This document shows, one piece after another, positions 8,522 through 14,499 of a stretch of 64,000 bases of DNA. Source of the stretch: Methylocaldum szegediense (GTDB lineage: Bacteria > Pseudomonadota > Gammaproteobacteria > Methylococcales > Methylococcaceae); contig NZ_OX458333.1 in the NCBI RefSeq assembly GCF_949769195.1, positions 1 through 64,000 on the forward strand, given 5' to 3'. The notes beneath the pieces were generated by a model that had not been told where the DNA came from, ran no database searches, and worked only from the letters and a program-made list of their open reading frames with translations. Each line of letters opens with the position of its first letter. Within the stretch, counting starts at the first letter, position 1. Both the position numbers and the translations under genes were made by a program.

Positions 8522-8597
8522 GGGCCGGTAGCTCAGCTGGGAGAGCGCTGCGTTCGCAATGCAGAGGTCGGGAGTTCGATCCTCCTCCGGTCCACCA
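8522..8597 (+). tRNA. tRNA-Ala (anticodon CGC)
   Basis: A complete 76-base cloverleaf. The acceptor GGGCCGG (8522-8528) pairs with CCGGTCC (8587-8593, one G-T pair), then A73 and an encoded CCA (8595-8597). The D arm has TAGCTCAGCTGGGAGAGC; the anticodon stem CTGCG/TGCAG holds loop TTCGCAA with anticodon CGC at 8555-8557, reading GCG codons. The T arm contains GTTCGATCC. It borders the accessory block to its right and so is a possible integration site. Confidence 0.97.
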
Positions 8598-8605
8598 ACA
8601 TTAGA

Positions 8606-8754: not shown

Positions 8755-8979
8755 TCAGCAGGTCAATGAGCACTCCCCCGTGAACCAGCAGGTTGCGGTG
8801 CGGCTAGAAGCGAGTGAGGAAATCGACGTTGCTCTGCGGCCTTGTGTTTGTCGCTTGATCCACTGTTCAATTTCCTGGTGCGAAAAGCGCCGTGTCCCTC
8901 CGATCTCGAAGGCGGGAATATCCTTTGCCGCCACCAGACGATAGATCGTGCGTTTGCCTACCTTGAGGTCGGCCGCCAC
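8755..8979 (-). CDS. Excisionase-family helix-turn-helix protein, start unclear
   Basis: A 74-residue frame whose first ~50 residues are a MerR/Xis-like DNA-binding domain: ADLKVGKRTIYRLVAAKDIPAF then GGTRRFSHQEIEQWIKRQ. Such small proteins act as excisionases or repressors of mobile elements. The usual N-terminal helix (EKIFSLDEVA) is encoded in frame upstream but lacks an ATG/GTG before an in-frame TGA; an ATG with a fair ribosome site (GAGAGGG) at 9019 lies one frame off. Either translation begins at the GTG at 8979, giving a shortened domain, or a one-base deletion has broken the gene. It diverges from the nurA operon, so it could regulate it. Confidence 0.6.
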   Translation of the reverse strand: MAADLKVGKRTIYRLVAAKDIPAFEIGGTRRFSHQEIEQWIKRQTQGRRATSISSLASSRTATCWFTGECSLTC

Positions 8980-9120
8980 TTCGTCGAGGCTGAATATCTT
9001 CTCCGGTGTTGTCTTTCATCGCCCTCTCATCTGGCAACACGATAGGGCCTGTGATGATGGTACGCTTGGCAAAGATACGGCAAACTTGTGCACCTTTGAT
9101 AGTCGATCGGTGGGAGGGAA

Positions 9121-10263
9121 ATGCTAGACCCAGCTAGTCAGGCCGAACTAAAGGAGGCCATCATAGATTGCATCAGCACCGATCAAGGGGAGCTGGATGC
9201 CCTGCGGGAAGAGATCCGCCCGTTGAAAAGTGCTATGCGCCGAATCCAGCCGCGTACCGCGACGTCGATCTCGCTGGTCGGTACCGATGGCGGCAACAAC
9301 CAGCTCCGATTTGATCCTTTTTTAATCCAGCTGGTTCGGGTCGTGGACAGTAGCAATAACGAATACTGTCTAGATGTGATTTCGCCGACGACACCCATCG
9401 CCAAACTTGATAGGCGCCAGTTCAACAATGATGGGAAGCCTTGCACGCTACTAGGCGAAATGATGGCGTACTTAGGCGTGATGTCCCTTCAAGACCTTTC
9501 CCCTGTCTTTCCGCGACCAGAAAAAAACAAGCCAGTGTCTCCTAGCTGGGTACAAGTCTATCGGGAGTTGGTGGAATGGGCCATTCTTTTTTCCATTCTG
9601 AAGAAAGATTTCGGAACGGACACATTGATCGTCTGTGATGGATTGTTGCGTACCAAAGTCTTTTCCGGGGACCTGTTCCAACGCCTACGCCAAGGCATGG
9701 AGGAGCGCATCGAAACACAATGGGCGAAGAATCGACGGCGTGTGTATCTCGCCGGTGTGGCCAAACACAGCAAGGTACTTTCGCGGTATCGCTTGGCCAT
9801 GGCACTGGAGGGCGTTCTCCAAACCGACTACCCCGCTTATGTAGAAGTACCGCGAGATGTCGAGGAAAAGGCCTATATCTGGTCGGAATTCGCACGAGGC
9901 GATGACCGTGCTGGCGAGGGAGGGGAGATCAACAAGTTCGTCGGCGGCAAGATGTTCCTGGTGAAGTTCGGGGCACACCGCTGCGATCCGGTGTGGCCTG
10001 TAGATATTTTTGAACCCCAGAAAGATAAAGCGCAAGAAATTCTCGGATACATGCTTGCTGACGCGATCAACGGCTTCCCAGTGCCTTACTATCCTCGGTG
10101 TTTGCAGAAGGCACATGAAAACGCGGCTCTGGTCGATTTCGATTTCGATATCCTTCAAGACTTTATTTACGAAGGTGTGCGATCGAGTCTCGGTGGCGAT
10201 GCTGGAATCTTGGACGCGTTTCAGCTTCAGGACGCGGACCCAGCGCAACATCGATACGGATAA
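9121..10263 (+). CDS. NurA-domain nuclease
   Basis: A 380-residue protein with the NurA layout: an RNase H-like nuclease fold that works with the HerA translocase to resect DNA ends (5'-3' in archaea). Visible family positions are GTDGG with Asp56, LIVCDGLLR with Asp173, GVAKHSK at 212-218, and the C-terminal PYYPRCLQKAHENA with His332. These are the places where NurA enzymes hold catalytic Mn-binding acidic residues and the conserved His. The ATG at 9121 has a strong site (GGGAGGGAA). It starts a compact operon with herA (11-base gap) and a DNA methyltransferase. NurA-HerA is general in archaea but patchy in bacteria, where HerA homologues are often found in defence loci. Confidence 0.8.
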   Translation: MLDPASQAELKEAIIDCISTDQGELDALREEIRPLKSAMRRIQPRTATSISLVGTDGGNNQLRFDPFLIQLVRVVDSSNNEYCLDVISPTTPIAKLDRRQFNNDGKPCTLLGEMMAYLGVMSLQDLSPVFPRPEKNKPVSPSWVQVYRELVEWAILFSILKKDFGTDTLIVCDGLLRTKVFSGDLFQRLRQGMEERIETQWAKNRRRVYLAGVAKHSKVLSRYRLAMALEGVLQTDYPAYVEVPRDVEEKAYIWSEFARGDDRAGEGGEINKFVGGKMFLVKFGAHRCDPVWPVDIFEPQKDKAQEILGYMLADAINGFPVPYYPRCLQKAHENAALVDFDFDILQDFIYEGVRSSLGGDAGILDAFQLQDADPAQHRYG

Positions 10264-10274
10264 GAGGCAACACC

Positions 10275-12380
10275 ATGGCAGATATCCAGCTCTTTCCAAG
10301 GGAAAAGGTCGTTGGCATCTTCCGTGGCTTCCAGCAAGGTGGCTTGGAGTTCCACGCGGATTTGGTCTTACCGTATCGGAACGAGTTCCAGAACATTCCG
10401 ATGCACGGGCAGTTTCTCCTCGTCCAATTGGAGACGCCCGATGAGGCTGTGTTAGGCCGCATAGCCTCCTTTTCGTCGGAGGGCAAGCTGTCTTTTGGCT
10501 CCGGCGAAGAATTCAATATTCGTGCAGTCCGCGAAGACCGGCCAATTCCTGAAGACCTGCGCGAGCAGTACCTCAAATACCGAGTCAACATCCGAGTGTT
10601 GGGTGTGTTGCGTAAGAATGGGAAAGGGCTGACCTTTGTCCCCTCGCATCGCCGGCTCCCCCATGTTGGTAGCAAGGTGGCTTTTCCGACTGATGATGTA
10701 TTGCGTGAGATTGCTGGTCACAATATCGACGGGGCGCCCATTGGTCATCTGGCTTTCGGCGAATACATCTATGCAGCAGGTAGCAAGTCATTCCTGGAGC
10801 AAGAATGGATGCAGGTTGTTAGCCCAGAGGTACTGGTCCGGTTCCCGATCGAGTCACTGGTGTCTCGTCGAAGCTTTATTTTTGCTCGGGCGGGCTTCGG
10901 TAAATCCAATCTTAACAAGCTGCTGTTCTCGAAGCTCTATGAGACCACGCCATTCGTCACCAAACGCGCTGGCAAGCGAGTCCCCGTGGGTACGGTGATT
11001 TTCGACCCGGATGGCGAGTATTTTTGGCCTGACGACAAAGGGCGGCCCGGGCTCTGTGACGTTCCTGCTCTGGAGGACAAGATTGTCGTCTTCACTGATA
11101 AGAAGAGTAATAGTCCGTTTTACCAGTCGTTTGTGGCCGGTGGAATCAAGCTGGATATTCGTCGCCTACGTCCAGGTGACGTAATCTCGATTGCGCTCGG
11201 GCCTGAACGTCAAGAGCAGCAGAACGTTAGAAAGTTGCGCGGGCTTCCACAAGACCGGTGGGAGTCGTTGGTTAATCTGATCGACACCAACGGCAACACC
11301 ACGCCGCTCGACGATATTTGCCGACTGCTCGATCTTGAGTACCCAAAGCAGGAGGCTGAAGCTCTAGCCGCCCGAGGAAATATGACAGCAATTGTGAGGA
11401 TGCTGCATGATAAGAGCAGCCAACTCATGGACATGCTGGTTCATGCATTGTCCGAGGGGAAGCTATGCATCATCGACGTCTCGCAAATGCGTGGTGGACA
11501 GTCGTTGGTTCTTTCCGGGCTGGTCCTGCGCCGGATTTTCGATCGCAACCAGCAGGAATTTACTGCAGCCGATCCCAAGACAATCCCCACGATTGCCGTC
11601 GTCGAGGAGGCGCAGTCGGTGCTGAACGAGAATGCCCCAGCAGCCGAGCCCTACATCGCCTGGGTAAAAGAAGGTCGTAAGTACGATCTGGGCGCGCTGT
11701 TGATTACCCAGCAGCCAGGCAGTATTCCCGTCGAGATCCTCAGTCAGGGCGACAACTGGTTTGTCTTCCATCTGCTGTCGGCTGCAGATCTCACGACCCT
11801 GAAACGGGCCAACGCGCATTTCAGTGACGACTTGTTGAGCTCTCTACTCAACGAACCCATCCCAGGCCAAGGTGTATTTTGGAGCTCAGTGGGAGGCAAG
11901 CCCTATCCAGTCAGTCTCCGCGCCCTGTCGTTCGAAAAGATGTTCTCGATGCGGGACCATGACTACAATCAACCCGCTGGCAATACCTACGCCAAAACGC
12001 TGCGCAGCATCTTTTCCGGGATGAGGCAGCTCGCGACGACAGTCCGTATTCCCGAAGCTGAGAGCGTAGGTACTTTGTTTTCTGAAGAGGCTGAAGCCGA
12101 GCCGGTGGACATCATGGCAAGCATCGAACAGCGGGCTATCGACGCATTGCGAGCTGACGCCAGCCTGATCGCGAAGATCGAATCTACCGATGGAGTCGCA
12201 TGGGGTTCGATCAAGGCGTTTTTCCTCGATCAGCTGCCGGAGCATCTGGATGACAGGGATAATTTAGCCTTTCGGCTTGTGAAGAAGGCGCTTGACCATT
12301 TCTATGGCCCACAAGGTCAAGGTTGGGAGCAATACCGTCATCCGATTCGCAACACTGCCTATGTCAGGAAGAGGAGTTAG
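10275..12380 (+). CDS. HerA-type DNA translocase/ATPase
   Basis: A 701-residue ATPase of the HerA/FtsK superfamily (DUF87). Residues ~1-100 look like the N-terminal HAS barrel (EKVVGIFRGF, GQFLLVQLETPDEAVLGRI). The Walker A is ARAGFGKSN with Lys210; Walker B with the catalytic acid is TIAVVEEAQSVL (Glu444/Glu445). A late GALLITQQPGSIPVEILSQ and DNWFVFHLLSAADL match the HerA sensor/arginine-finger region. HerA forms a hexameric ring that drives DNA into NurA. Length is above the ~500 residues of archaeal HerA; the C-terminal ~150 residues are extra and unknown. The stop is three bases before the methyltransferase GTG. Confidence 0.86.
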   Translation: MADIQLFPREKVVGIFRGFQQGGLEFHADLVLPYRNEFQNIPMHGQFLLVQLETPDEAVLGRIASFSSEGKLSFGSGEEFNIRAVREDRPIPEDLREQYLKYRVNIRVLGVLRKNGKGLTFVPSHRRLPHVGSKVAFPTDDVLREIAGHNIDGAPIGHLAFGEYIYAAGSKSFLEQEWMQVVSPEVLVRFPIESLVSRRSFIFARAGFGKSNLNKLLFSKLYETTPFVTKRAGKRVPVGTVIFDPDGEYFWPDDKGRPGLCDVPALEDKIVVFTDKKSNSPFYQSFVAGGIKLDIRRLRPGDVISIALGPERQEQQNVRKLRGLPQDRWESLVNLIDTNGNTTPLDDICRLLDLEYPKQEAEALAARGNMTAIVRMLHDKSSQLMDMLVHALSEGKLCIIDVSQMRGGQSLVLSGLVLRRIFDRNQQEFTAADPKTIPTIAVVEEAQSVLNENAPAAEPYIAWVKEGRKYDLGALLITQQPGSIPVEILSQGDNWFVFHLLSAADLTTLKRANAHFSDDLLSSLLNEPIPGQGVFWSSVGGKPYPVSLRALSFEKMFSMRDHDYNQPAGNTYAKTLRSIFSGMRQLATTVRIPEAESVGTLFSEEAEAEPVDIMASIEQRAIDALRADASLIAKIESTDGVAWGSIKAFFLDQLPEHLDDRDNLAFRLVKKALDHFYGPQGQGWEQYRHPIRNTAYVRKRS

Positions 12381-12383
12381 GTA

Positions 12384-13475
12384 GTGTCCAGCGCACAAAC
12401 GGCACTGAATGGAATCTGCCCGTATTTCACGATGTTCCCACTCGATTTTCCGCTCAACATTCTGAAGCGAAGAGCACGGGCAGGTGACGTCGTGCTTGAT
12501 CCGTTCTGTGGCCGGGGCACCACCAATTTCGCCGCACGACTTGTCGGCCTCCGTTCCCTTGGGGTCGATTCCAGCCCGGTTGCCGCAGCCATTACCGCTT
12601 CGAAACTGGTGACCACAACCGTCGGTGCTGTCCTCGACGAGGCGCGCAGGATTCTGACGGAACGTGAGGCGCGCCATATCCCGACCGGCGAATTCTGGCA
12701 ACTGGCGTTTCATCCGACCGTGCTGGATGCGTTGTGTCGATTTCGGGAGGCATTCCTGGAGGACTGCACGACGGACGCCCGTATTGCGCTTCGCGGCATC
12801 GTCTTGGGTGCACTACACGGGCCGAAACAGAAGACGTTTCCCAGCTACTTCTCCAACCAATGCCCCCGTACTTACGCTCCCAAGCCCGCCTACGCGACCC
12901 GATTCTGGCGGAAGCATGGGCTTGCGCCTGAACCTGTCGACGTCTTGGCTGTGATCGAACGTCGGGCGAAGCGTTACTATGGGATGTGTCCCAATATTAC
13001 AGGCACCGTGCGACTGGCGGACAGCCGTGAGGCTGAGGCACTCCAGCCAGAAACACCGGAAGCTCGATTCAACTGGGTGATCACCTCCCCCCCGTACTAC
13101 GGTATGCGGACCTACATCCCCGACCAGTGGCTCCGCAACTGGTTCGTGGGTGGTCCGGACGCTGTCGATTACAGCAACCGCAATCAGGTCGTTCATTCCA
13201 GTCCCGAGGACTTCGCGGCCGATTTGCGTCAGGTATGGCGCAACGCGAGCAACGTATGCGCCGAAGAAGCCAGAATGGTTATTCGCTTTGGCGGTATAAC
13301 GGATAGGCGCGCCAATCCCCTAGACCTCATCAAGAGCTCCCTAGGTGACAGTGGCTGGCGTATCACTACTATCAGGGGGGCGGGGTCAGCCACCGAAGGC
13401 AAGCGTCAGGCGGATGCCTTTCTGCGTACAAAATCCAAGCCGATGATCGAGTACGATGTTTGGGCGACCAGATAG
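12384..13475 (+). CDS. DNA methyltransferase (N6-adenine or N4-cytosine type) linked to NurA-HerA
   Basis: A 363-residue AdoMet-dependent DNA methylase. The AdoMet motif I VVLDPFCGRGT is at residues ~36-46 and the catalytic motif IV TSPPYYG at 234-240 (SPPY with Ser235). The ~190 residues between probably hold the target recognition part. Motif I before motif IV is the reverse of the usual beta class, although the motif wording (DPFxGxGT plus TSPPY) is beta-like. The start is a GTG three bases after the herA stop, with GAGGAG inside the end of herA, so it is co-translated with the nuclease module. By context it may mark host DNA. Confidence 0.85.
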   Translation: MSSAQTALNGICPYFTMFPLDFPLNILKRRARAGDVVLDPFCGRGTTNFAARLVGLRSLGVDSSPVAAAITASKLVTTTVGAVLDEARRILTEREARHIPTGEFWQLAFHPTVLDALCRFREAFLEDCTTDARIALRGIVLGALHGPKQKTFPSYFSNQCPRTYAPKPAYATRFWRKHGLAPEPVDVLAVIERRAKRYYGMCPNITGTVRLADSREAEALQPETPEARFNWVITSPPYYGMRTYIPDQWLRNWFVGGPDAVDYSNRNQVVHSSPEDFAADLRQVWRNASNVCAEEARMVIRFGGITDRRANPLDLIKSSLGDSGWRITTIRGAGSATEGKRQADAFLRTKSKPMIEYDVWATR

Positions 13476-13841
13476 TAGCCTGGTGTGTCGGTTAGATCGT
13501 TAGGCACTGCCGCCCGACCTGGGGGCGGGTTCAATTCCGAATTTGGAATCGAACTGGCGCCAGATTTGAGGCGCTTGGCGAGTTTCTGCTCTGGTAGGAA
13601 CGGTTAGGAATAGTGGTAACAAGGACTGCGATGTCACTCTTTTCCGCCGGCGTTTGCCTGAATTTCTACTACCATTTGATGCTGGCTGCTCCGCCACGAG
13701 CTACAAAGGGGCAACCGAAATTTTGCGGAATTGAAAAGCATGGTACGAGTCGCAGATCTGCACCGGGATCTTCCCCGGTGCTAGCCGGCAGAGAGCGAAG
13801 TCCATTTGGACCGACGGCTTTATCATCTCTAAGTGTCCGCT
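13476..13841. other. Intergenic region with a hairpin, no gene seen
   Basis: About 365 bases between the methyltransferase and higA, which are convergent. Plus-strand frames here show no family-like sequence. GCACCGGG (13760-13767) and CCCGGTGC (13774-13781) form an 8-bp hairpin with loop ATCTTC, without a T-run. I find no copy of the tRNA-Ala 3' end that would mark an attachment site. Confidence 0.45.
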
Positions 13842-14135
13842 TTATGCCGCGTACGGCTGCACTTCCCGCTCGATGGTATCGAGAAGGGTGGCGGCGGCGA
13901 TTTTCAAATCATAGTCCTGCTGGAGATTCAGCCAGAATTCCGGCGTGGTGCCGAAGTAGCGTGCAAGGCGAAGGGCTGTGTCCGGCGTGATTGCCCGGCG
14001 CTCGCGGACAATATCGTTGATGCGCGGCGCGGGCACTCTCAAGGCCTGCGCCAGCGCATGGGCGGTCATGCCATAAGGAATCAGAAATTCCTCCCGCAAA
14101 ATCTCTCCGGGATGAATAGGACGCATACCATTCAT
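13842..14135 (-). CDS. higA: HigA-family antitoxin
   Basis: A 97-residue XRE-type helix-turn-helix antitoxin. The start MRPIHPGEILREEFLIPYGM is the HigA hallmark; the HTH follows (TAHALAQALRVPAPRINDIV) and then RRAITPDTALRLARYFGTTPEFWLNLQQDYDL. The ATG at 14135 has GGAGG seven bases before it, better than the ATG ten codons upstream. It lies 85 bases after higB in the toxin-first order typical of hig operons, and should bind HigB and repress the operon through the palindrome at 14526-14544. Confidence 0.92.
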   Translation of the reverse strand: MNGMRPIHPGEILREEFLIPYGMTAHALAQALRVPAPRINDIVRERRAITPDTALRLARYFGTTPEFWLNLQQDYDLKIAAATLLDTIEREVQPYAA

Positions 14136-14220
14136 CTCAATACCTCCACGGCCATTGCCGTTCAAATCCGAACCTGCCTCTTAAGGACAGGCAAGCACAC
14201 ATTGGAAATTTTCATCAACC

Positions 14221-14499
14221 TTAGTGGTAATCCACGATTTCCACGTCCGAGGCGTTTTTTCCGTCGAACCGGGAGCAGATACGCCATTGGTCATTGATCC
14301 GAACGCTCCACTGCCCCGTGCGATCGCCCTGTAGCGCCTCCAGCCGGTTACCCGGCGGGCTCCGGAGATCCTGAAGGGCCGCCGCCTTATCCAGCATTTG
14401 CAGTTTACGCTCGGCCTGAGACCGAATCGCCAGAAACCGGCGCGGGCAGTCGCCCTTAAATAGCGCCTCGGTATCCTTGCAGCGGAACGATTCAATCAT
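14221..14499 (-). CDS. higB: HigB/RelE-family toxin
   Basis: A 92-residue RelE-superfamily ribosome-dependent mRNA nuclease. Motifs are MIESFRCKDTEALFKGDCPRR at the start, RKLQMLDKAAALQDLRSPPGNRLEALQGDR in the middle, and GQWSVRINDQWRICSRF, which contains the conserved Arg/Trp of the active surface, then VEIVDYH at the end. Full length. Cotranscribed with higA. It closes the accessory block that starts at tRNA-Ala, and could stabilise it. Confidence 0.92.
   Translation of the reverse strand: MIESFRCKDTEALFKGDCPRRFLAIRSQAERKLQMLDKAAALQDLRSPPGNRLEALQGDRTGQWSVRINDQWRICSRFDGKNASDVEIVDYH

Follow-up and report, generated by a model that had tools for sequence, protein, structure and literature searches.

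In the Tdp system, phosphorothioation shields host DNA from a HerA-like/nuclease machine, and three genes provide the modifier and the translocase-nuclease. HerA is also found paired with the nuclease NurA. The HerA-NurA of Deinococcus acts on DNA ends (PMC9960219), and that of T. kodakarensis cuts both strands of dsDNA, for which its authors suggested an antiviral role (PMC12977600). In the Sir2-HerA and DUF4297-HerA antiphage systems, an effector is coupled to a HerA-family ATPase (PMC11291478, PMC12977600). Here we describe a three-gene cassette within 64,000 nucleotides of Methylocaldum szegediense DNA (the window). Like the archaeal and Deinococcus systems, the cassette pairs a HerA translocase with a NurA-like nuclease; like Tdp, it is composed of a modifier and a translocase-nuclease. 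Unlike the Sir2 and DUF4297 systems, its HerA has neither of those partners and is accompanied instead by a NurA-like protein and a DNA methylase.

The cassette consists of three co-directional ORFs separated by 11 bp and then 3 bp in the ORF list, in agreement with the layout given in a preliminary description of this DNA. Together with a divergent gene upstream, the features are as follows:

8836 to 9019, minus strand: frameshifted remnant of an excisionase-type HTH_17 gene, divergent from the cassette (blastn conservation, translations, HTH_17 match)
9121 to 10263, plus strand: NurA-like nuclease, 380 aa (weak PF09376 matches in relatives, invariant residues)
10275 to 12380, plus strand: HerA-type hexameric DNA translocase, 701 aa, extended at the C terminus past the HerA core (DUF87, PDB match to TdpA)
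12384 to 13475, plus strand: DNA methyltransferase, 363 aa, GTG start (PF01555, PADLOC MTase_II, alignment, adjacency)

The window HerA matched DUF87 (E 7e-18). Its Walker A Lys210 and Walker B Glu444/445, both named in the preliminary description, were invariant in 16 relatives and were kept in homologues of 20 to 26% identity. When the PDB was searched, TdpA of TdpABC (PDB 8wet, 8wfd, 8y1k) was the best solved match (E 8e-22), well ahead of HERA in second place (4e-12). The nearest solved relative of this HerA is thus part of a modification-protected system, which we count in favor of a restriction-modification-like function.

The NurA-like protein was more divergent. The window protein itself had no match in Pfam, NCBIfam, PADLOC or PDB. 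Weak matches to PF09376 (NurA) were obtained for 10 of 20 relatives, and one homologue, 62% identical (L030), narrowly exceeded the curated cut-off (21.5 versus 21 bits). Four residues (Asp56, Asp173, Tyr324, and His332) were invariant among relatives down to 55% identity. Because of the weak Pfam matches, the homologue above the cut-off and the invariant residues, the earlier NurA label is accepted at the level of sequence. The best PDB match of the NurA-like profile was TdpB, which at an E value of 0.46 is only suggestive, and no match was obtained with alignment A13. Profile-profile comparison against distant NurA proteins gave a probability of only 10%, with the DG motif in the aligned part. 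Two AlphaFold models had mean pLDDT values of 47 and 49, the alignments being too shallow, and a Foldseek search with the second, low-pLDDT model returned no meaningful fold match. With the NurA-like protein as query, neither tblastn against plasmids and phages nor two scans of IMG/VR gave a match.

The third gene encodes a methylase matching PF01555 (E 5.5e-13) and PADLOC MTase_II (1e-19), a base methylase in place of the TdpC-type enzyme. Alignment A5 gave the motif order as motif I near the N terminus and, after ∼190 aa, motif IV (TSPPY); the two motifs previously noted, DPFCGRGT and TSPPY, were located at residues 39 to 46 and 234 to 238. A TSPPY motif in DNA methylases points to N4-cytosine, and the mark made by the window enzyme is on this basis probably N4-methylcytosine (m4C). 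No phosphorothioation gene was seen beside the NurA-HerA pair in the sister-locus gene lists examined.

The distribution of the cassette was examined next. One genome was scanned for each species, which yielded 24 relatives; whole-genome samples added G312 (the L021 locus), G408, G515, and G900, and one further locus (L094) was added from an IMG/VR contig. Loci were judged where both neighbors were visible, which left 25 with the window included. NurA was followed by HerA in all 25, and the methylase stood next to the pair in 19. The methylase was last in most loci and first in L021 and L030. Conservation in so many genomes excludes chance as the origin of the arrangement. The hosts of close loci belonged to the Pseudomonadota, Nitrospirota, and Thermodesulfobacteriota, and the cassette was absent from most relatives in the genome samples. 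More distant trios of HerA, a NurA-like protein and a methylase, found from the methylase side and only ∼20 to 32% identical to the window proteins, were present in a gammaproteobacterial genome (G487) and on two plasmids, one from Deferribacter and one from the archaeon Halorarius halobius (L047 is the archaeal locus, L045 and L046 are the other two). The middle protein of the archaeal trio had no Pfam NurA match and aligned with annotated NurA proteins. The three-gene composition proposed for the window thus recurs elsewhere, in close loci and in distant trios. Judged from these sequences, the cassette is mobile and moves between unrelated microbes. In Cupriavidus cauae and Pandoraea nosoerga, two loci (L014 and L026) differed at 2 positions in 19,140 bp, as if a mobile element had carried the locus across very recently; the number of independent events is therefore smaller than the number of loci counted.

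Six close loci (L013, L015, L016, L018, L023, and L152) carried NurA-HerA without an adjacent methylase of the window type, and another methylase gene was nearby in four of them. In L015, L016, and L023, a 248-aa DUF3223 protein followed NurA-HerA where the methylase would stand; two of these loci (L016 and L023) also had a WYL regulator and two HsdM genes divergent from the pair. On cyanobacterial plasmids, an HTH-HerA-NurA arrangement occurred with no annotated methylase.

The methylase was also followed beyond the cassette. When the methylase was used to search a class-wide sample, four full-length matches were obtained, the window included, and every one adjoined HerA and NurA. In the wider methylase family, most members had no adjacent HerA, and members without HerA also occurred on IMG/VR contigs. 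The family was seen beside DUF262-like and other genes, in a type II-like unit and as an orphan. In seven loci (L042, L043, L080, L095, L102, L104, and L108), a methylase-family gene adjoined a large SF1 helicase protein with a RecB-like N terminus, about 1415 aa in full-length copies; this pair may be another restriction system, of two genes and so far undescribed. Two phage-like contigs (L096 and L097) carried methylases 62 to 63% identical to the query beside a DUF262-looking gene and a ∼350-aa gene, and these could be phage-borne protection or defense. One apparent methylase-HerA pair, in G830, was rejected, as the supposed HerA was FtsK. Because it is found with helicase-nuclease, DUF262-like and type II-like partners and as an orphan, the methylase family is probably the marking component of several systems.

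These observations bear on whether the methylase belongs to the cassette at all. HerA-NurA could be an autonomous end-dependent nuclease that degrades foreign DNA or resects ends, and the methylase a separate passenger, for example an orphan or anti-restriction enzyme, carried on the same mobile elements. The cyanobacterial pairs without a methylase, the methylases without HerA (those on IMG/VR contigs included) and the action of Deinococcus HerA-NurA on ends (PMC9960219) would fit such an arrangement. However, 19 of the 25 close loci have the methylase right next to the pair, before or after it, and the methylase recurs with trios of only 20 to 32% identity; a passenger is not expected to track the pair so closely. 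We therefore consider a passenger methylase unlikely.

Within the cassette, the methylase has been replaced, on the evidence of L021. There, NurA and HerA were 80% and 83% identical to those of the window, but the methylase was only 46% identical and stood at the opposite end of the operon. It grouped instead with the methylases adjoining the SF1 helicase-nuclease (100/98 support). Since L021 keeps NurA-HerA yet has a divergent methylase at the other end, the marking enzyme of the cassette is, to judge from this comparison, exchangeable. This exchange and the varied partners of the family support a marking role for the methylase and suggest that reading the sequence recognized by its methylase is not required of the nuclease. 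A type II restriction-modification unit likewise links a stand-alone DNA methylase to a nuclease gene, but the cassette lacks a site-specific endonuclease (no candidate was found between positions 8600 and 14900 of the window), its nuclease would be a motor-driven NurA, and a different methylase can take over with the nuclease retained.

The preliminary description had proposed a restriction-like system distinct from types I to III, BREX and DISARM. This distinction holds in that no type II endonuclease, HsdR/HsdS or BREX/DISARM core was present in the cassette; BrxC-PglZ, DrmABC, and HsdR-HsdS were all missing beside the window cassette, and such systems only neighbor some sister loci. The closest known design, Tdp, was left unnamed there. 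In addition, the methylase proved to be exchangeable and to partner other effectors as well, and NurA-HerA also to occur without it.

Blastn against sister loci delimited a conserved DNA block from about 8846 to 13480, which includes the divergent HTH_17 gene just upstream of the cassette, not mentioned in the preliminary description. At least nine sister loci had an intact copy of this gene (the one in L010 matched HTH_17 with an E value of 2e-15), and the window copy is frameshifted; it may be a regulator of the cassette or a recombination factor. The genes beyond the block differed by genome and included BREX BrxC/PglX, a DISARM-type DrmD helicase and a DUF499 ATPase, as well as MzaC/Z1 with a GHKL ATPase, type I HsdM, and UvrD-PDDEXK helicase-nucleases with methylases. 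The surroundings of sister cassettes were thus mostly other defense systems, as a defense-island setting would have it. In the window, the flanks were as first described. A tRNA-Ala gene lies beside the cassette at 8522 to 8597, and a HigA/HigB-type toxin-antitoxin pair lies just downstream on the minus strand (13842 to 14499), the only such neighbor after the window cassette. Two congeners (L150 and L151) showed no tRNA-Ala gene at the equivalent position, and the gene may have come with the island; a duplication of the tRNA end as an attachment site was sought in the window and not found.

Such a neighborhood could mean that NurA-HerA is an auxiliary effector of the adjoining ATP-dependent defense system (BREX, type I, DUF499, or DISARM-like), connected through the divergent HTH promoter region, and that the window copy is stranded. 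In six loci (L005 of Methylococcus capsulatus Texas, L008, L010, L014, L017, and L031), differing defense systems do start out divergently right at the HTH-NurA junction, and the window HTH gene carries a frameshift and adjoins no such system. However, in L021, L022, and L025, the trio, with its own methylase, stood among non-defense genes with no defense genes nearby, and because of this the cassette looks self-sufficient. The neighboring systems are also mutually unrelated, as in an ordinary defense-island hot spot. An auxiliary role is thus doubtful.

The cassette might also be an operon for DNA end resection or repair, as in archaea and Deinococcus, with which it shares protein families and HerA Walker motifs. 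The similarity to those systems is very low: the NCBIfam equivalog models for repair HerA gave the window HerA 47.7 bits against an 800-bit cut-off and 39.8 bits against a 970-bit cut-off, far below both. No mre11 or rad50 was seen beside the cassette, and its methylase partner, its absence from most relatives, its spread over phyla and mobile elements and its defense neighborhood all set it apart. Because of this mobility, patchiness and context, we regard a repair operon as very improbable.

The reading we favor, and hold to be somewhat probable, is that the cassette is a mobile restriction-modification-like defense system in which methylation would shield self DNA from a HerA-NurA translocase-nuclease. 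The design is best read, by analogy, as Tdp-like, with methylation replacing phosphorothioation. In this model, the methylase would mark host DNA, probably with N4-methylcytosine. HerA hexamers would pump dsDNA into a NurA dimer, where the DNA would be shredded. On self DNA, we infer that the methyl mark blocks either the loading or the translocation of HerA-NurA, while unmarked phage or plasmid DNA would be destroyed. Counted against this reading were the six close loci and the cyanobacterial plasmids lacking the methylase, the other partners of the methylase and the weak match to TdpB. No description of a NurA-HerA-methylase composition was found in the open literature, which is weak evidence of novelty, as many journals lay outside the search. 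More tentatively, and with less confidence than for the cassette itself, we suggest that the loci may represent a widespread, undescribed class of bacterial and archaeal restriction in which methylation gates a HerA-NurA that is blind to the sequence of its methylase, and modification enzymes are freely swapped between motor-driven effectors.

If this proves true, the Tdp logic of protection by modification and degradation by HerA would also work with ordinary base methylation, and modification enzymes and motor-nucleases would be interchangeable parts. A compact three-gene defense family would be gained, across phyla and extending to archaea, and the finding would bear on why HerA-NurA occurs outside DNA repair.
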